This document shows, piece by piece, positions 48,314 to 62,293 of a DNA stretch of 64,000 nucleotides. The translations under genes and the position numbers were made by a program. The DNA is from Gautieria morchelliformis (lineage: Eukaryota; Basidiomycota; Agaricomycetes; Gomphales; Gomphaceae): NCBI GenBank assembly GCA_015179125.1, contig WHVA01000060.1, forward strand, positions 1 to 64,000. Direction: 5' to 3'. The notes beneath the pieces are model-generated. The model searched no databases, had not been told where the DNA came from, and saw only the letters and a program-made list of their open reading frames with translations. The first letter of the stretch is position 1; each line of letters starts with the position of its first letter.

Positions 48314-49920
48314 TGTTGGGACCAGTGATGAACCATCAATCCGGGTAAAGGATGTCAATCGTGTTTGATGGCGTGCCTGCTGGCAAATGATACGAGTAGC
48401 GAATGGTCATATGGCGAATGTGGCGAATAACGAATGGAGTGAGGAGTGAATGGAGCGAAGATGAGCGAAGATGGAAGAGTGGTGAAAGGGAAAACAGGGA
48501 TAGCTGGGTACAAGAAATAAATGAGTCATGACAGCCTGCACCTCCTTGCAATTCATGATAGGACCAGTGATGAACCATCAATCCAGGTAAAGGATGTCAA
48601 TCGTGTTTGATGGCATGGCTACTGGTGAATGATGCGAGTAGTGAATGGTCATTTGGCGAATGTGGCGAATAGTGAATGGAGCAAGGAGTGAATGGAGCGA
48701 AGCCGAGCGAACATGGAAGAGTGGTGGTGAAAGGGAAAACAGGGATAGCTGGATACAAGAAATGAATGGGTCATGACAACTGTGTAGTGAAAACTTCAGC
48801 GAAGCTAGTTCGTCCTGCCCTGCAGTGGTACGAGTCCCATTGAGTCCAACCTGCACGGGGGCTGCAACTGACACTATCTGAATGCATCCTGAGCATGTGG
48901 GTCTGTCATGGAGTGGGAGTTTAACAGATGATGGGTTCTATGATGGATGAGGGCCCCAACACCTGGCGTCCTGGCAGGAATGATGCGAATAGTGAATGCG
49001 AAAGCAGTATGGCGACGAATATTTTGGCAAGATATTCGCTGGTTCGGGAAGCCATTTGCTGGTTCAGGAGGTCATTCGCTGTGTGCTGAGGGATGATTCG
49101 CAGAATAAATGAATCATGACAGGGGGCTGATGAATAGAGTCGACCAGGGGTACTGAAGAACAATGGGTCGAGGTTGTGGGTTGCGGAGGATGCGGAATAG
49201 AGTCGGAGGTGCTGCGGAGGTGTTCCGGAGGTGGCGGAGATGGTCGAGCGGCATGGTTGTAACAGCATATCCGCTTCAAGGTCGAGCCCTGCGAGACCGG
49301 GTACTGGGTCACGTGACATGGAACAAAGTTGGCGGAGTTTGAAAGATAGGCGGAACACGTGAATCTTCTTCTTGCTGCCACCATGACTTTAGTAAACCTG
49401 TCGAAACTTTCCTCAGAGGAATTAGAAAAACTCCTGGCACAGTGGAAGGCGGATGAGTGCAAAAAGTGTGAAGACCAAGAGCATGAAAAACAACGGCTTG
49501 AACAAGAGCGCAAGGACTGCAAAGAGCGTGAATGCCTAGAGCGGGAGGCCGAAGAAGTGGTGGAGAAGCTTGCGGAAGAGCAAGCTGCTGCAGAAAAGGC
49601 AACTGTGGCAAAGGCGGCCACGGCGGAAAAGGAGTGAGTGGCCATGAAGGTAAGTCCCACAACTCCTTTGGTGAACAGTCTGACTGTCAGAACAGAAAAG
49701 GTTTGCCGACATGGAGGAGATCTCCATGCGGAGTGAAACTCTGTTGGAAGGCACGCTGGTGGAAACTCCCAAGCCCAAGAACAAGGGAAAAGGGAAGGTG
49801 ATGGCGGAGTGGTGTGCGCCCTAGGAGGAAAAGCAACACTGGAAGGAAGCACACCAGGCGGGGGTCAAGAGGTCTGCGCTGGATGATGATGGCCCTTTTA
49901 GAATTAATATCAGATTAATC
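48314..49920 (-). mobile_element. Ty3 chromovirus 3' end: LTR plus antisense ORF remnant
   Basis: Minus-oriented. 48314-49264 is a probable LTR (TGTT..AACA ends), whose right end resembles that of the LTR at 58501-59192 (GGT(C/T)GTAACA followed by a related flank with GGTCGAGCCC). Beyond it, on the plus strand, lies an open frame from 49383 in a good start context (GCCACCATGA). It encodes a Lys/Glu-rich coiled coil 'LSKLSSEELEKLLAQWKADE' like that at 59.3 kb, and coding-like sequence continues to about 49.9 kb. No pol remains. A broken, older copy. Confidence 0.6.
48319..49112. repeat. Direct repeats of about 215 bp inside the LTR
   Basis: 48319-48531 and 48561-48778 are close direct copies (both start GGACCAGTGATGAACCATCA), spaced about 242 bp. 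48968-49112 is a third, diverged and partial copy. Each ends near an 'AAATGA(G/A)T(C)ATGAC' block. Confidence 0.75.
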
Positions 49921-51033
49921 AGAATAAATATATTCTGATTGCTCAGAGAGTGGGTATCCTTCGTGCACCCCTGTGTGCGATGTATGTGCGATCTGACTAA
50001 GCTGTTTTGGAACCCTTCAAGACTTTGGTTTATTGCTAACACTTCAATCTATCAGAACATGTCGTTTACAAGACTCAAAGAATATTAAACAATGCTGCAG
50101 CACAACTCCAGAAATAATTTAATATTTGTACCTTGGTTGCAATCCATGTAAGAACTAGTCCAAGTTAATATGGATGGAAGGCAATGCGTTTCTCAGCAGC
50201 AAACAATAAACTAAAAGAATGTAGGTTTGAGGGCACTATTGGGGTCCCAGCGTATTCCAAAATATGAGGGAATGTGCTTAGCAGGTGAGTTTATAAATGG
50301 ACTGACCTGATAATCTACCAACGCACTGCAATTAAACGAGAGGCAAAGAATAGAATATAAAGCAGCTTTTACAAGTAACAGGAATTGACTTGTGAAAGAT
50401 ATTAACCAGGAAAATCAACTGATCAACTCTCTCGGGTATTGGAGTGCGAATGGTAAGACTATCAATTGACAGACTCACTCTGTAGAATTACACCCGGAGG
50501 ATTAGTCTAGGTGGCTAAGCAGAAAAGTATCTACTTAACAAGGAATTAGACACTAAAGTAAGTGAATAACCCTAGCTGGGATTAGCAGCTTAGTAAGATG
50601 CAAGTCACATGAGTCACGTGTAGGATAGAAGCAGTAGATTGCTAGATTGATGATTCCTAGGGGCTCAGAATGGCCTCCTTTTATATTGTAAATTACACAG
50701 GATTACATAAAATGGGGTTCTTCTATCTATTAGGCGAGTGATGTCATAAGTAAATATTTGCGCAGCTAAAACACACCCTTGTAACTATTGTGGCGTGTTT
50801 GTGCAAGGAAATTAAGAATAGATAGTTAATCACCTTCCCTGATTTGCACTGCCCAGCATAGCCTTACACAGCCCTGCACAGCCCTGCACAGCCCTATGAC
50901 ATCAAGGGTCCGATTTCAGGGGTTGTAGCACTAAGCTTGGAGGCTCAGCATCCAATAAGATTGCTTGAATATGCACCCTAGTTTTGGCTCTGCATATCAT
51001 TGGGCAGTCTTACACACTGTCAGGGGAACACCA
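49921..51033. other. AT-rich non-coding block, possibly LTR-derived
   Basis: About 1.1 kb without a supported gene. It contains a 10-bp inverted repeat near 49915-49942 (AATCAGAATA / TATTCTGATT). A TTTATAT lies near 50682, and near 50867-50896 there are three copies of ACAGCCCTGC. It looks like LTR or leader sequence of a minus-oriented element, but I could not pair it with another copy. Confidence 0.35.
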
Positions 51034-51270
51034 ATCACACACTGTATGATCACACTGTGTATGATCGCACTGTGTATGATCGCACTGTGTATGATCGCAC
51101 TGTGTATGATCGCACTGTGCATGGTCGCACTGTGCATGGTCGTACTGTGCATGGTCGCACTGTGCATGATCGCACTGTGCATGATCACACTTTGCATGAT
51201 CGCACTGTGCATGATCACACTATGCATGATCGCAGTGTGCATTATCACACACTGCATCATCGCAGCGTGT
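51034..51270. repeat. Minisatellite, about 15 copies of a 15-bp unit
   Basis: Unit ATGATCGCACTGTG(C/T) with small changes. Because the unit is a multiple of three without stops, several frames on both strands are open across it (for example repeated DRTVH or MIALC); these are artefacts of the repeat, not genes. Confidence 0.9.
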
Positions 51271-51472
51271 TGTTGGTGGCCCCTGAGCTTCTCCTAGCCT
51301 TTAGCATCCTTCTGTCTTGTGTTCCGTTTATTTCCCTTCCTGTTCCAGCCCCTTCCGACATCATTCCTTCCTTATCTGTCCAGCCCTGTTATCACTGGCA
51401 TGATTGCTTATGTAACTTGGGCATTCGGTGATTGGGCTAGCATGCCCACGTTTGCTTATAGTTGTAGTTAGG

Positions 51473-51576: not shown

Positions 51577-52877
51577 TTTGCCGCTTGAGTGTAGAACGTC
51601 TGCCTAGGTTGCCCTTATAAGTTCGTCGATGAACATCTCAACATGGGCTTCATATGCCCTTCAGTGTCTCCACATGGCACTCTGGTCCGTTTCGTTAAGA
51701 AGAAGGATGGATCTCTCCGCCTCTGCGTCGATTTCCGCAGACTTAACGCCCTCACTAAGAAGGACAAGTATCCACTTCCACGCATTTCTGACCTCCTCGA
51801 CACACCCTGCAGAGCGAAGATCTACACCAAAATTGACCTCCAGCACGCTTATCACCTTGTCCGCATCCGTGAAGGTGATGAGTGGAAACCACCTTCTGCA
51901 CTCGCTATGGTGCTTTTGAGTGGGTTGTCATGCCTTTTGGTCTAACCAATGCTCCCGCCGCTTTTCAGTGATTCATGAACAACGTATTTTCCAACCTCCT
52001 CGATGTATGCATCCTAGTCTATATTGATGACATCCTCATCTATTCCAACACACTGGAAGAACATCGGGAACATGTCCGCGAAGTACTCCGCCGTCTCCGC
52101 AAACATCACCTCTACGCAAAAGCAGAGAAATGCAAATGGCATCGCGACACTGTCAAATACCTAGGCTACATCCTCTCTCCAACAGGTCTCACCATGTCAG
52201 AGGACAAGGTCAAGGCAATTCAAGAATGGCTGGAACCCCAACATGTTAAGGATGTGCAGTCTTTCCTTGCCTTTGCCAATTTTTACCAATGTTTCATTTA
52301 TAATTTTTCCGACATTACTGTTCCACTCATGCATCTCACCAGGAAGGGTGCTCCATGGAATTTCACTCTGGAATGCCACTCAGCATTCGAAACCCTCAAG
52401 GTGGCCTTCACTACAGCTCCTATACTTGGTTTCTGGATTCCTGATGCCCAACTTGTACTTGAAACCGATGCTTCTGACTATGTGCTAGCCGCCATTCTTT
52501 CAATCATTTCACCCAACAACGGAGAAATTCATCCAATCGCATTTCATTCCCGCCCCTTTTCCGCCCCAGAACTCAACTACAACATCCACAATAAGGAACT
52601 CCTTGTGATCTTAGAAGCCTTCAAAATTTGGCAACACTACCTCGAAGGTCCAATTTATCCAATTGACATTGTCACAGATCATAAAAACCTGGAGTATTTT
52701 GCGACTACTAAGATTCTGACTCACCGTCAAGTCCACTGGTCTGAATACCTCTCACAGTTCAACATGGTGATCCGCTTCCACCCAGGAAAGCTCGGAGCAA
52801 AACCCAACGCGCTCACTAGATGTTGGGATGTCTACCCAAAAGAGGGAAGTAGCGACTATGCCAGTGTTAATCCACAC

Positions 52878-53952
52878 TTTTAGATTAAAATGTTAATTAG
52901 TGCCTTTTTATCAAATGAAATCTGTTGCTTAGTGGTTGAAACCACTATATTCGCCTCCCCTCTGTGTGCTGACTAAGCTCTTCGGGGTGCGTACAACACT
53001 GATGAATGAGGGTCACGTGACCGTGTCGTCAGAAGAACAGTGTCGATCCAAGGGATAGTCAAATCAAAAGCGTTCGCTTTTAAGGTAGTATAGAGTAAAC
53101 AGTGATAGTAGACTCTCAACGAAGATTTGGAATAAACTGTTAAGAACTGAGCTCTGTAACTATCAAACAAGATTACAGCAATTTCAGGAGGCAGAAAAAA
53201 TCGATTCTGGATAATTTTGTTCATACATTCGTGCTAGCTATTTATACTATTTTAGTAGTAAGTACTAGTACTCAAGATACTAGATAAATGGGTCGGGAAG
53301 GCTGTTTGTAACTAGGGAGTGACTAATTAATAGTCATAATGTCATGGGGTGATGGGGATGATGTTAGGATTCTCTGGGCTTTGGAGCAAGGGTCTATACC
53401 TAGTATACAAAGCCCCTGTCAACATAATACTGAGATAATAGCCAGTGAGACGTGTCATGGAGCTAGAATAGAGAATGATACTATATTTGCCCTGCCTAGC
53501 ATAAATGCTAGGCTTGGAGATGGGGCCGCTGTCTCTGTGCCTCTCTTGTGTGGCAGCTGATTGAGTATATGTGTTGCAGATGACTTTCTCAGGTCACTCC
53601 ACAACACCCTGTACCCCTGCGCAGTCTACTATTCTCTGCGGCGTTTGGTGCCCGTACCCCTCGGTACCTATGGCCTGGCGCCTGTCGACGTCATGGCTGA
53701 TACCATCACCCGATAGGCGCGCCGTCCCTGATCGACCGCACGTGGCCGACGCTCGAACTCCTGTATACTACCCGATCTATGGGTAATATAGCGTGTCGTA
53801 AGATTCGTGTGATCGTCGTTTGCGCCGACGTCTATCGTGAATGTAGTTTGTGTTTCTTTTGATTTTTTTTTTTGTTTTTGATTTTCTCTTCCTTTTTTTA
53901 TTAGTTTCTTTTTATATAAATGATTTGAGTAAGATAATTGCGTTTATCACAA
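52878..53952. mobile_element. Unclassified 1.08-kb insertion inside the Ty3 copy
   Basis: It separates RNase H from integrase of the surrounding element. The flanks share CACAC (52873-52877 and 53953-53957), a likely target duplication, though the bases are low in complexity. The insert starts TTTTAGATTAAAATG and ends TTTATCACAA, with no TG..CA LTR ends and no clear terminal inverted repeats. A T-rich tract lies at 53850-53905. No open frame of note. It could be a SINE-like or other non-autonomous element. Confidence 0.5.
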
Positions 53953-55645
53953 CACACAACTTCCGCCTGGTATTCTCGACCGAGCAGCTGGCATTGTCCC
54001 TTCGTGCCACAGCATTGCAGTTTCCGCTACTCCGCGCCTCAATCATTATGGACACCGAGTCTCTCCATTCCAACATCCGTTCCGCACTCCGTTCCGACCC
54101 CATCTCCGCAGCCCACCTCGATGACCCCACCAGTCCTGGATGGTCCCTCGATTCTGACAGATTTCTCCGGTACAAGTCCTGGATTTATGTTCCGGATACC
54201 AACGATCTACGACTACGCATACTCCAGCAAAGCGACGATCACTCCGCTCTCAGGGCACCAAGGCCAGAACAAGACCCTCGACATCATCCGATGCACCTAC
54301 ACTTGGCCACTTCTCCACACAATGGTCCAAGACTACTGCAAGTCATGCACCACCTGTATGCATGCCAAGCCTCAACGTCACAAACCCTACGGCCTCCTGA
54401 AGCAACTTCTGATCCCGGAACAACCCTGGAATTCAATATCCACGGACTTCATCGAGACACTTCCTAAGTCATCTGGCTATGATACCATTCTAGTTATTGT
54501 TGACCGCCTTACAAAGCAGTCTATCTTTATTCCAACCTACAACACCATCACTTCTGCCCAGCTCGCACAGCTCTTCGGGCTCCAGGTCGTTTCCAAGCAC
54601 GGAATCCCCTCCCATGTCACTTCCAACCATGGATCAGAATTCGTGTCCTCCTTCTTCTGCACCCTTGGCAAGGCTCTCAACATGAAACTCCACTTCACTT
54701 CTGGTTGTCATCCTGAAGGTGATGGCCAAACAGAACGTACTAATCAGACCCTCAAGCAGGACCTCCATGTCCATTGCAACTACCAACACAGCAACTGGTC
54801 CAACCTTCTTCCACTCATGGAATTTGCCGACAACAATGCACCTTCCACCACCACCGGAATTTCGCCCTTCTATGCCAATAAGGGCTATCACCCGAATCTC
54901 GCCATCCACCCTGAATGCGACCTCGCCTCTGCCAGAGCCCGAGACTTCATTGTGGAACTCGATGACCTTCACCAGCACCTTTGAGAGAACATATCCGCTG
55001 CCCAAAAGAGATATCAAACTTCCACCGATTGGAAACATCTTCTGCAACCATCATTCAAGATAGGGGACAAAGTCTTTGTCAAAGCAGAAAACTTCCACAC
55101 CACTTGCCCTTCAAAGAAGCTCTCTGAAAAATACCTTGGCCCTTACGAGATCATTGCTAAGGCCGGCAGTCGTTCTTTCACTCTCAGACTTCCTGACAAT
55201 ATGCGCACAGTCCATCCGGTATTCCATGTGTCTATGCTTGAAACCTCAGTTCCGAATACAATTCTGAATCGCAAACAACCTCTGCCTCCACCAGTGATCA
55301 TCGACAGAGAACCGGAATATGAGATTTCAGAATCCTCAACTCCAAGCTAGACAAGCGATACCATTGTCAACTCCAGTACCTAGTCAAGTGGGCAGGCTAT
55401 GAAAACACCGACCAAGAGACTTCCTGGATTTCCGCCACGGAACTCGACCACGCATCCGAACTCATCTCAGATTTCCACAAGGCATACCCTGCCAAGCCTG
55501 GACCCCTTCTCGCGCACTAAGTCATTTGGACACCTACACCTTTCTACTCTGCATCCATTCCTTAAGTCACACATTAATTCTGATTAGTAATTCTGCTAAT
55601 TTATTCCGACGTTCCAAGAAATTATTCTACAAGACATTTAAACCC

Positions 55646-55828
55646 CTAGTCTTCTTCCATGGTGTTGTCACCACCAAATCCCACCCAGTCGTCCACCTCC
55701 GGCTCCTCTGCAGTTCCACCGATCCCATGGTCCTCCACGAACCTCACAACATCCTGCACCTCGCCCTCCGACACTTCCACAGCCGCTTCCGAATCCTCCG
55801 CTTCCTGCATCCACCTCCACTCTGCCAC
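55646..55828 (-). other. Remnant of the antisense ORF of the Ty3 copy
   Basis: The minus strand (antisense to the surrounding Ty3 copy) reads 'EWRWMQEAEDSEAAVEVSEG' and ends with an acidic tail. It lies in the same place, just downstream of the chromodomain, and resembles the C-terminal stretch of the 59.3-60.5 kb ORF ('REYRWRNEMVRERMEPRVQE'). The rest is cut off by the family X junction at about 55.88 kb. Confidence 0.45.
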
Positions 55829-56004
55829 AACCTGGTCCAGATGATCTTCAAAGGCCCCGAGTGTAAAGGGTGTCGATCTTAGAACCTTGTATCACAAGGG
55901 CACTACAGAACTTGACCAATGAGTGGTATTCTGAATGCTACATAGTGACAGGTAAGAGTAAGATGCGATGGGGACCGCTGGCCGGTTCCCACGCATAAAC
56001 TATA

Positions 56005-58500: not shown

Positions 58501-59192
58501 TGTTACGTATCGAGATTTCCACTAAGTCGGAACTGGAAAGGACAGCGGCTTCAACTTATAGGTTGCGCCCCCAATGAACTATCGTCCTAGGTATTTCGGA
58601 AATGAGCCGGAAGTCGGAAAGTACTGGACCAGCTGTTTGGTCGGAACTTGAGTCGGAACTGAGGCGGAAGGCGGAAGACGGAAGGCTGAGAGAGAGACTG
58701 AGATCTTGCTAGACTCGCTGTGCTAAGAACAGGAGATGGAGCGAAGGAAATCAAGTATCGAAGGTGATTATCTGATTGCAGAATAACAGACATACATGAG
58801 GGGTTTTTATACAAAGCGCAGAGCAACAAGTAATGGTGTTGTACTAAGCAAATTCCGGAGGAAGCGGAAGTCGAGTACAATGTGTGGGAACTAACTAATT
58901 GGGAACAATGGGACTACAAGGGGGGTTCAGGGTAAGGTAGAACAATGGCAAAGAACAAGGGGTCGGGAAAACATATCTGACAACGAACTACAAGGGTGAC
59001 CGTATATATGGTTTTGATGGATGGCGAGGTGGGTCCGGTGGGTCCGAGTAATAGAGTCGAAAGAACAAGGGAAATGTACAAGGGGCGGAATGTCGGAAAT
59101 GTCGGAGGGGCGGAACGTGTGGCGGAACTATTGGAGAGGCGGAATGTATGGCGGAACTGAGGGTCGGAAATCGGAAATGAACGGTCGTAACA
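58501..59192 (-). repeat. Ty3 LTR (692 bp) rich in CGGAA
   Basis: Ends TGTTAC and GTAACA. The bases next to its inner end (59193-59206), read on the minus strand, give a polypurine tract (AGAAGGGAGATAC), which fixes its orientation as a 3' LTR of a minus-strand element. I count 18 CGGAA on the plus strand and one on the other. Confidence 0.8.
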
Positions 59193-59315
59193 GTATCTCC
59201 CTTCTAATGGTCGAGCCCCGCGAGACCACAAGTCGGAATCACGTGACTTGTGAACAAACGCGTCGGAGTTAGAACTATAGGCGGGAAACAAGACGCGTCT
59301 TCTGTTTACTCCATC

Positions 59316-60520
59316 ATGAGCTCTTCAGTCGATTTCTCTAAAATGTCCAGTGCCGAGATGAAGCAGCATTTTGCTGACATTCTTGCGCAGAAGGAACTGG
59401 CCGAGAAGCGCGAGGCCGAGGAAACCGCGCGGAAAGAGAGGGAGCGGCTGGAGGAGGAGCGCAAGGAACTGGAGCGTCGGGAGCAGGAACGGAAGGAGAA
59501 GGAGGAGCGTGACCGTAAGCGTCGCGAGGAGGAGTCGCGCGCCCGTGAAGAACAACGGAAACGGAATGCGGCTGAAAAGGCTGCGGAAGAAAAAGCCGTG
59601 GCGGAAAAGGCAGGGAAGTTCCGGGTGAGTCGGAAATGTCGTGGGGAGGTTCCGGAGCTCACAGAGAACTGCCAGAGAGTTGCCGATTCCGAGGGGGAGT
59701 CGGAAGCGGAAAGCACGCCGTCTCCAGAGGGCAAGGGGAAGCAAAAGAAAAGTGCTCCTATGCCGAACGTAGTTGAGGAGCGGAAACGGAGGGCGGACGA
59801 GTTCCAGCAAGCTCGGAAAGAGAAGCTGGCTCGGATACTGGAGTTGCGAGAGCTGGGACCGGAAAATCCTGCGATCCGGAAAAGGAAGTCCAGGGACGGT
59901 GAGGAGGAGAAGGCTCCTTGCGATACGTGCGAGGTTAAGGGCCTGGAGTGCGTGTGGTCGGAAAATCCGCGGGAGACGGCCTGCGAACGGTGCCGGGACA
60001 AGAAGTGCCGTTGCGTGGTGGATGGGTGTGCCGCTAGGGTGGAGCGGAAACGGCGCAGGGTTGAGACCGAGGGGCCTGAAACCCCCAAGTCAAAACCGGG
60101 ACCAAGCGGGAAGAAGGCGGAGGGGTTTCCGGTGACCGGAACATCGGAGACAGCGGTGCTGAACCGCTTCAGCATGGCATCTCCGCTGCTAGACATCGCG
60201 GAGTCGCTGAGGGGATCCGGAAAACCCAACGCGGGATCCGGAAGCTGCTGACGGATATGGCGGTGGTTCAGGAACAGCAGTTGCTGTCGTTCCAGAACCA
60301 GATGACCGTCATGTCGGCGGTCCTGGAGCAGTTCAAGCGCGAGTACCGGTGGCGGAACGAGATGGTCCGGGAAAGGATGGAACCACGGGTGCAGGAGGAG
60401 ACTGAGGCGGAAACGAGGGAACGGTTAGACACGGAGTTGGTGGTCGTCGAGGTAGGAGGGTCGGAAAAGGACCCGGAAGCGGAAAGGGAGGTCGAGGCGG
60501 AGACCATGAGGGAGGAGTAG
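59316..60520 (+). CDS. Antisense ORF of the Ty3 element: coiled coil plus Zn2Cys6 cluster
   Basis: It lies between the chromodomain end and the 3' LTR, on the strand opposite to pol. The main open stretch runs to 60251, starting 'MSSSVDFSKMSSAEMKQHFA'. A very charged coiled coil covers residues about 25-105 (RKERERLEEERKELERREQE), followed by a disordered Ser/Glu/Lys part. At 59919-60010 lies a cysteine block with spacing C-x2-C-x6-C-x10-C-x2-C-x6-C, exactly that of fungal Gal4-type binuclear clusters. A second open stretch on the same strand (60257-60520) is Glu/Arg-rich with 'QNQMTVMSAVLEQFKREYRW'. Function unknown; DNA binding is suggested by the cluster. Equivalent remnants sit in two other Ty3 copies of this window. 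Confidence 0.65.
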
Positions 60521-61795
60521 GGTGTCGAGGTGACTTGTAGTATTTTTCTTGAAGTGTCGGAAATTAGCATATCGGAATAATAATCGGATTTTCTTTTGAA
60601 TTATGGCTTGAGAAATGTAAGCAAGCCGTGGTGTCGGAATGACTAGGGCGCGGAAATGGGGCCAGGCTTGTCAGGATATGACTTGTGGAAATCAGAGACG
60701 AGGTCAGAGGCGTGGTCAAGTTCCGTGGCGGAAATCCACGAAGTTTCTTCGTCGGTGTTTTCATAGCCTGCCCACTTGACTAGGTACTGGAGTTGGCAGC
60801 GGTATCGTCTGTCGAGTTTGGAGTTGAGAATTTCCGAAATCTCATATTCCGGTTCTCCGTCGATGACGACTGGCGGAGGCGGAGGTTGTTCTCGATTCGG
60901 AATTGTATTCGGAACTGCTGGCTCAAGCATAGAGACATGGAATACCGGATGTACTGCGCGCATATTGTCAGGAAGTCTGAGGGTGAAAGAACGACTGCCG
61001 GCCTTAGCGATGATCTCGTAAGGACCGAGGTATTTCTCAGAGAGCTTCTTCGAGGGGCGAGTGGTGCGGAAGTTTTCCGCTTTGACAAAGGCTTTGTCGC
61101 CTATCTCGAATGCCGGTTGCGGAAGGCGTTTCCGATCGGCGGAAGTTTGGTATCTCTTCTGGGCAGCGGTAATGTTCTCTCGGAGGTGCTGGTGAAGGTC
61201 GTCAAGTTCCACAACGAAATCTCGGGCTCTTGCAGAGGCGAGGTCGCGTTCAGGGTGGATGGCGAGATTCGGGTGGTAGCCCTTGTTGGCATAAAAGGGT
61301 GAAATTCCGGTGGTAGCGGAAGGCGCGTTGTTGTAGGCAAATTCCGCGAGCGGAAGAAGGTCGGACCAATTGCTATGTTGGTAGTTGCAATAGACGCGGA
61401 GATACTGCTCAAGGGTCTGATTAGTACGTTCCGTTTGTCCGTCTCCTTCGGGGTGATAACCGGAAGTGAAGTGGAGCTTCATGTCGAGAGCCTTGCCGAG
61501 TGTGCGGAAAAAGGAGGACACAAATTCGGATCCACGGTCGGAAGTGACATGGGAAGGTATTCCGTGCTTGGAAAAGACGTGGAGCACAAAGAGCTGTGCG
61601 AGCTGGGCGGAAGTTATGGTGTCGTAGGTCGGAATAAAGATGGACTGCTTTGTGAGGCGGTCAACGATCACTAGAATGGTATCATAGCCGGATGACTTAG
61701 GAAGTTTCTCAATGAAATCCATGGATATTGAATTCCACGGTTGTTCCGGGATCGGAAGTTGCTTCAGGAGGCCGTAGGGTTTGTGACGTTGAGGC

Positions 61796-62293
61796 TGTTG
61801 GGTGCATTTATGCTCCTGCACCAAAATCAAGCATAATATATCCAATTTGTTGTGAGGCCTTCCAATTTCTTCTCACATTGTTCTTGTATTATGCATCCAT
61901 TTCTCTGGTTATTTTCGAAATTTTCCACTCATTCCTTATCTCTCTATTTCATCTTGTTATTCCTACTTTCACAAGCGGCTGCACCCAGCGGAGTCTGAAA
62001 TGACTTCGACGCGCGAGCTCTTGGGCGCTAAAGGGCCGGGTAGTAGTACATGCGCAGTGGAACACATTTCCCCCTCTCTCAGTGACCACTAAATTCACTG
62101 AGAGAGGCAAGTAAATTAGTCTAGTAGTCTTTGCATTTATTGACCTAGAAATCCTCTGTAGTGAATTGATTTCTAGGTAGTGTATAATATATTTATAGTG
62201 ACCACTAAATTCACTGAGAGAGTGAATTGATTTCTAGTCTATTCTTTTGAATAACAAGTCCATACCTACTGCCTATAATTCCTGTCCTCTACA
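61796..62293 (+). repeat. 5' LTR of the copia element
   Basis: TGTTGGG...CTCTACA, 498 bp. It carries the family hairpin (CTCTCTCAGTGA / TCACTGAGAGAG) near 62078-62106 and a repeat of the right arm near 62200-62225. Confidence 0.92.

Follow-up and report, generated by a model that had tools for sequence, protein, structure and literature searches.

A conserved antisense gene with a Zn2Cys6-like cluster in a Ty3 chromovirus family of the fungus Gautieria morchelliformis

Open reading frames that run antisense to gag-pol have been described in several plant Ty3/gypsy elements (gene23 of maize Grande, rice RIRE2, TRP28 of Retand), where, in the portions of the literature drawn on here, they occupy the slot between pol and the 3' LTR in most copies, and their products, mostly without clear database similarity, are suspected of nuclear, DNA-binding or regulatory roles (PMC7264820, PMC11963269). 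Here we describe a Gautieria gene that lies in the same slot, in the same orientation and in most copies of its family, but which departs from the plant cases, as those portions describe them, in its fungal chromovirus host, its Zn2Cys6-like cluster, its apparent short intron and its diverged, exchangeable versions; Retand is assigned, in the passage that classifies it, to a non-chromovirus lineage. A fungal antisense gene, brtn of the Boty-like elements of Botrytis cinerea, was reportedly described by Zhao et al. in 2011. The Boty-like element is fungal and carries a chromodomain, according to the section that treats it (PMC4227169). Going by the title of that report, brtn is like the Gautieria gene in being an extra antisense gene of a fungal chromodomain element. 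The HBZ gene of HTLV-1 is spliced, antisense and adjacent to the 3' LTR, and here the likeness is one of layout only, protein and virus being unrelated. For HTLV, an antisense promoter in the 3' LTR and the nuclear location of the antisense protein HBZ are both noted in the relevant sections of two accounts (PMC11963269, PMC7264820). Among open full texts, with the subscription literature largely outside the search, we found no earlier account of an antisense Zn2Cys6 gene in fungal or basidiomycete LTR elements. Antisense extra ORFs as such are known, from plants and from Boty brtn; what appears to be new is an antisense ORF that is spliced, multi-allelic and carries a zinc cluster.

The window, by which we mean the whole 64-kb stretch of DNA analysed, belongs to contig C671 of an assembly of 122 Mb and 1113 contigs from the gomphalean basidiomycete G. 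morchelliformis. Its features are as follows.

58501–59192, minus strand: 3' LTR of the focal element (TGTTACG...CGTAACA), matched by the L061 LTR in two blastn pieces at 95 and 97%; ends placed by reading
59239–59246, plus strand: TCACGTGA, an E-box in the spacer between the LTR and the antisense ATG; candidate antisense promoter element
59316–59624, plus strand: exon 1 of the antisense gene; conserved N-terminus with a charged, coiled-coil-like stretch (by eye)
59625–59675, plus strand: predicted spliceosomal intron of 51 nt, GTGAGT...CAG, in the same place in 61 of 71 distinct copies
59676–60251, plus strand: first part of exon 2, ending at a stop that a frameshift causes in the focal copy
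59919–60014, plus strand: Zn2Cys6-like cluster, C-x2-C-x6-C-x10-C-x2-C-x6-C, with one additional Cys in the focal copy
60212–60520, plus strand: C-terminal helix and acidic tail (..MREE), out of frame in the focal copy; located by tblastn with the L061 protein
60643–61845, minus strand: 3' part of pol with integrase core, SH3_Tf2-1 and chromodomain (Pfam, blastn); element homology ends at 61796
51619–55514, plus strand: older, CpG-decayed pol copy, in pieces, 89% identical to the focal-type pol
55661–55880, minus strand: C-terminal remnant (..TMEED) of a type X antisense gene, behind the older pol
49383–49637, plus strand: N-terminal remnant of another diverged antisense gene, behind LTR-like sequence at 49200–49380 (likeness by eye)

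The element is a Ty3 chromovirus, with integrase followed by a chromodomain at the C-terminus of pol, and with LTRs. All of rve, SH3_Tf2-1 and Chromo exceed the Pfam cut-offs in the focal pol piece, and the blastn comparison shows the focal element to be 5'-truncated; in the 7.9-kb L061 element the two LTRs are 99.85% identical over the part compared. With the gene on the plus strand, pol on the minus strand and the LTR at 58501–59192, the gene sits between the pol stop and the 3' LTR, opposite to gag-pol. It thus has the position of an aORF-3R, antisense to the genomic RNA and without overlap with pol. The initial annotation had placed an ORF antisense to pol between chromodomain and 3' LTR, and this is borne out (ORF 59316–60251, plus strand; pol 60643–61845, minus strand), as is the six-Cys block it described, whose first Cys codon lies at 59919 and last at 60012. 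Its single long ORF over 59316–60520 does not stand, since a frameshift ahead of the C-terminal helix splits the focal copy (60251 / 60257–60520) and 59625–59675 is very probably an intron. The same kind of frameshift affects the antisense genes of L006 and L015; among L001–L030 (L029 left out), 26 copies read beyond the focal frameshift point and three do not.

The further remnants that had been pointed out at 49.4 and 55.6 kb are real, but they belong to diverged types and are not close copies of the focal gene, for a tblastn of five type I proteins (E<=0.01) misses both. The type represented at 55661–55880 has 90 matches in the genome. Elsewhere in this part of the window, 50990–51299 is a tandem array of a 15-nt unit, listed in 14 overlapping registers and open on both strands, and the older copy at 51.6–55.5 kb, compared with L061, has CA or TG in place of CG at 92 of the 185 CpG positions that lie outside the motif discussed below, resembling methylation-linked decay.

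Sequence conservation confirms, in our view, that the antisense ORF is a real gene: at least 131 genomic matches of the focal ORF, together with conservation specific to one reading frame, argue against chance. In 13 diverged copies, picked for open frames, own-frame dN/dS has a median of 0.22 (range 0.15–0.40, 78 pairs), against medians of 0.42, 1.08, 1.32, 1.42 and 1.73 in the other five frames of the same copies. Gaps in the exons are multiples of three in 218 of 234 cases, and length differences in the intron are spread 27/27/12 over the three remainders. When 23 young copies are pooled (length filter 390–420 aa, L003 left out), dN/dS is 0.19; within the classes of the integrase-picked set described below it is 0.14 for class 1 (15 pairs), 0.46 for class 2 (6 pairs), 0.40 for class 4 (1 pair) and 0.45 for class 0 (45 pairs), the last set taking in copies with frameshifted ends. 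An excess of synonymous change among copies, which the initial annotation had proposed as a test, is therefore present, with dN/dS near 0.2 in the gene's own frame. We also considered a spurious ORF produced by biased composition: the composition is indeed skewed, and the strand opposite the ORF also has long open frames, of 307 and 161 aa. It was rejected, and retains virtually no probability, given the contrast between the own frame and the other five, the in-frame exon gaps and the conservation of splice sites and Cys spacing.

Most copies of the family carry the gene. Among 126 listed integrase copies, 103 have a listed gene match within 3 kb, every one of them on the opposite strand and downstream; ten of the 23 without such a match were looked at, and proved to have type X genes (5), class 2 genes (2) or a deleted or truncated gene (3). 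The class 1 antisense genes of two young copies, L035 (C136) and L087 (C394), are internally deleted beside well-kept integrases, so loss of the gene does occur, whether before insertion or afterwards. In L068 (C139:92900–97100) the antisense gene continues in one open frame of 1298 aa into a Helitron-like helicase (named by eye), a natural in-frame fusion.

The initial annotation inferred a gene captured and kept by the lineage. That it has been kept is well supported by the dN/dS of about 0.2 and by its placement on the other strand, downstream of integrase, in 103 of 126 copies; for capture, database searches yielded no source in the host or in another genome. A predominance of homologues outside Ty3 elements, a further test named in the initial annotation, was not seen among the matches listed. 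The zinc part found no relatives outside this genome in the protein database, a profile search over the best 8000 candidates gave nothing at E<=0.01, and searches of NCBIfam and PDB returned nothing relevant. The whole ORF had a sole match in the protein database, a chimeric G. morchelliformis gene model, P0001, that starts with the N-terminus of the antisense gene. Compared with the assembly (introns not modelled), P0001 is 100% identical over residues 1–81 and 127–167 and 78–92% identical in other pieces, all on contig C763; at C763:29442–31593 the N-terminus of the antisense gene is followed by unrelated exons, which means that the prediction is chimeric or that a first exon has been exapted.

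The antisense gene very probably contains a spliceosomal intron, at 59625–59675 in the focal copy, to judge from a GTGAGT...[CT]AG segment that stands at one fixed place and whose removal gives a single frame of mostly 380–407 codons. Such a model, mostly of 51–58 nt, was obtained in 72 of 83 loci, that is, in 61 of 71 distinct places. Because the frame test selects for intron models, and because copies picked for frames that are open without splicing account for 17 of the distinct models (54 nt), the comparison of copies picked by integrase is the stronger evidence. Among the 25 of these with a model, intron lengths are 51 (11 copies), 55 (9), 56 (2), 57, 58 and 80 nt, and 14 of the 25 would be closed if left unspliced, 13 by length and one by a stop; on this ground one uninterrupted ORF was rejected in favour of two exons. 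The 80-nt intron, in L037, looks by eye as if part of the donor side of the 51-nt intron had been duplicated. In type X genes a GTAAGT...CAG segment of 47 or 45 nt occupies the same joint, where a second acceptor also keeps the frame. An intron in antisense orientation would stay in the sense genomic RNA, which may explain how a retroelement comes to retain one.

Zn2Cys6 domains (PF00172) follow the pattern C-x2-C-x6-C-x5-12-C-x2-C-x6-8-C, and the spacing of the antisense cluster satisfies it. Types I and X both have the arrangement C-x2-C-x6-C-x10-C-x2-C-x6-C, although some copies have lost single cysteines; its conservation in other copies, also put forward at the outset as a test, thus extends even to 39–45% protein identity. 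Zn_clus is the leading Pfam match, at E=0.099 and under the cut-off in the focal copy, and it matches at E<=1 in 12 of 13 members; when 17 copies were scanned singly against the cut-off of 21 bits, L063 reached 22.3, 15 copies scored 12.2–20.0 and L074 had no match. In Gal4 the basic residues stand in the first Cys loop. The antisense protein has no such Gal4-style basic residues in that loop, its basic RDKKRR lying between the fifth and sixth Cys, in the second half of the cluster. Modelled from a single sequence, the cluster comes out poorly (mean pLDDT 65), with short strands and a single helix in place of the two helices of a Gal4-like fold. Gal4-type factors bind CGG DNA, to which the CGGAA saturation described below relates only indirectly. 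The protein is therefore like Gal4-type Zn2Cys6 factors in its six-Cys spacing, its nearby basic residues and its downstream helical stretch, but unlike them in exceeding the Pfam cut-off in one of 17 copies, in the placement of its basic residues and in being retrotransposon-borne. The motif, the basic stretches and the helices suggest that the gene probably encodes a nuclear, coiled-coil DNA-binding protein of Zn2Cys6-like type, and the resemblance to Zn2Cys6 factors, incomplete as it is, would point to a regulatory role.

Two short motifs bear on what such a protein might do. The hexamer CACGTG occurs in 59 of 60 upstream regions (duplicate loci counted), those of type X and of the 49 kb fragment among them, and in L061 the CACGTG ahead of the antisense ATG is the only one in the element; the spacer that holds it is a likely candidate for the antisense promoter. 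The second motif saturates the element. On the sense strand of L061, TTCCG occurs 117 times against 18.1 expected from dinucleotide shuffles and CGGAA 30 times against 9.1, and a comparison region, positions 1–45000 of the window, holds 77 motifs on both strands together. Under synonymous-codon shuffling the top-ranking pentamer among all 1024 is TTCCG in pol (47 vs 14.9) and in gag (13 vs 4.0), and CGGAA in the antisense gene (23 vs 11.1), which rules out a by-product of codon choice. CGGAA is enriched in all seven gene versions tested (z 3.0–5.2), while types I and X share only 1–6 site positions of 12–20 alignable, so that sites have evidently turned over while their density stayed. We also rejected the motif as a trait of young copies only, the sites missing from the older copy being mostly CpG-type changes (TTCCG to TTCCA 12, to TTCTG 8, kept 10, other or gap 4). 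L061 holds more direct repeats at a spacing of 12 nt than expected (9 vs 1.4; Poisson p 1.6e-5, uncorrected for the 56 spacings), and inverted or everted CGG pairs have no preferred spacing there.

The motif is strongly biased towards the sense strand in L061 (TTCCG 117 vs CGGAA 30), a bias that a model of DNA sites does not need and that keeps an RNA-level role in view. CGGAA/UUCCG might thus be a dispersed packaging or Gag-binding motif of the sense genomic RNA, unrelated to the antisense protein. In keeping with this, UUCCG is slightly more often unpaired in the sense RNA than pentamers of the same composition (0.494 vs 0.451; 4 of 1000 resamples as high), with no effect in the antisense RNA. 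The pairing effect is small, however, gag is nearly unbiased (13 vs 10) and the 12-nt direct-repeat spacing fits DNA, and we regard an RNA signal as possible yet doubtful. The dispersal of sites over the whole element, along with the basic stretches and coiled coils, would also suit a protein that coats element cDNA or chromatin and, jointly with the chromodomain, directs integration instead of controlling transcription; in plants, the product of one antisense ORF is located in the nucleus, and its possible part in retrotransposition or a nuclear step is discussed in the passage concerned (PMC7264820). Antisense coding, on the other hand, means that the protein can come only from integrated copies and not from genomic RNA, and we think such a helper unlikely.

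The distribution of gene versions over element backbones strongly suggests that the gene behaves as an exchangeable cassette. Of 30 loci fetched by integrase alone, 25 have a complete gene model and 23 of these also a pol segment. At gene dS<0.2 the 23 copies form five classes of 10, 6, 4, 2 and 1; between classes gene dS is 1.05 (dN/dS 0.17) and pol dS 0.060, against a pol dS of 0.047 within classes, and gene and pol distances are uncorrelated (Spearman rho 0.085, p 0.18). Compared with L061, diverged copies are 94–100% identical up to the pol stop, mostly 50–90% through the gene and 96–99% again right before the LTR. Class labels require four changes on the gene tree, the minimum, and ten (minimum four) on a pol tree of 22 copies from which the 5'-truncated focal copy was left out, where shuffled labels average 11.5 and are as low in 33 of 200 cases. 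Class 0 taken alone shows some clustering on pol, where it needs 4 changes and 12 of 500 shuffles go as low, and AU tests, on a pol that varies little, reject a single pol clade for class 2 (p 0.019) and do not do so for class 0 (0.118) or class 1 (0.144). Type X, whose protein is 39–45% identical to type I, was read beside two integrases, 100% (C309) and 98% (C582) identical to the focal integrase, and type X matches lie beside three more (C1108 100%, C182 97%, C659 96%). The LTRs of L061 and L062 (class 1) are 98% identical, those of L061 and two type X copies 94%; with the LTRs of two classes so alike, no allele-specific operator is visible between L061 and L062.

Such a pattern might also arise if old alleles sat on a swept backbone, pol and LTRs having been homogenised by recombination and bursts while old gene versions were carried along by chance. 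Near-identical flanks favour recombination, and other gene versions are already found in older copies at 89–95% pol identity; in L043, L051, L052 and L054, moreover, the L061-like sequence extends beyond the pol stop and the switch point falls at the 3' end of the gene or within that end, as this account would allow. Against it, three versions occur in several copies each on one young backbone (10, 6 and 4 of 23) and a further type lies beside 98 and 100% identical integrases, where chance sweeps would be expected to carry one version, and we consider it somewhat unlikely. Nor does the divergence between versions look like fast protein evolution, which we rejected as its cause: there is no sign of a fast-changing recognition surface, pN/pS being at most 0.66 in every window along the gene, and the divergence is mostly synonymous. 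The same evenness of synonymous divergence (pS 0.31–0.68, rather even along the gene), with no positive selection on the protein, would be expected if double-stranded RNA from the segment silenced the elements that share it and diverged segments escaped, the protein merely being kept from breaking. The diverged stretch, from about the pol stop to the start of the antisense gene and including the non-coding 3' part in most diverged copies, matches the overlap that such RNA interference would require. Silencing of this kind gives no account, however, of why the coiled coil and the Cys cluster persist at identities as low as about 40%, or of the CGGAA saturation in LTR, gag and pol, and we judge it improbable.

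The reading that we prefer, and to which we give even chances, is that this is an accessory gene of a Ty3 chromovirus family, a spliced antisense Zn2Cys6-like self-regulator whose versions are swapped between elements. The gene would be read from the conserved spacer beside the 3' LTR, its likely promoter. Given the antisense layout and the one intron, its mRNA could be made and spliced only from integrated DNA, and the sense genomic RNA would ship gene and intron unspliced. The product may recognise the CGGAA-type sites packed through the element and thereby tune element expression, most likely by self-limiting feedback. Exchange of versions by recombination in the flanking pol and LTR is strongly suggested; more speculatively, the several very different versions on one recent backbone might mean that a new version lets an element escape the control of resident copies.

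The nearest evolutionary parallel is copy-number control of Ty1 by p22. In Ty1 and Ty1' a self-encoded control region differs between subfamilies, has been moved by recombination and underlies subfamily-specific restriction, as set out in the sections drawn on here (PMC7055915, PMC12530519). Unlike p22, which is capsid-derived, the Gautieria gene is not derived from gag but is separate, antisense and of DNA-binding type, and we hypothesise that it may restrict its own family. Carried furthest, the idea would provide a eukaryotic counterpart of phage heteroimmunity, a spliced antisense zinc-cluster repressor acting on CGGAA sites, with version swapping keeping ancient versions on a young backbone; in this full form we hold it to be unlikely.

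Although antisense genes of LTR elements were recognised years ago, no function has been settled for them, as the part of the literature cited above puts it (PMC7264820). In Gautieria such a gene is conserved, apparently spliced and multi-allelic; it exists in well over a hundred natural copies, and the element contains a candidate binding motif. It may thus offer a concrete case for retrotransposon self-regulation, and for self-recognition alleles kept by frequency-dependent selection.
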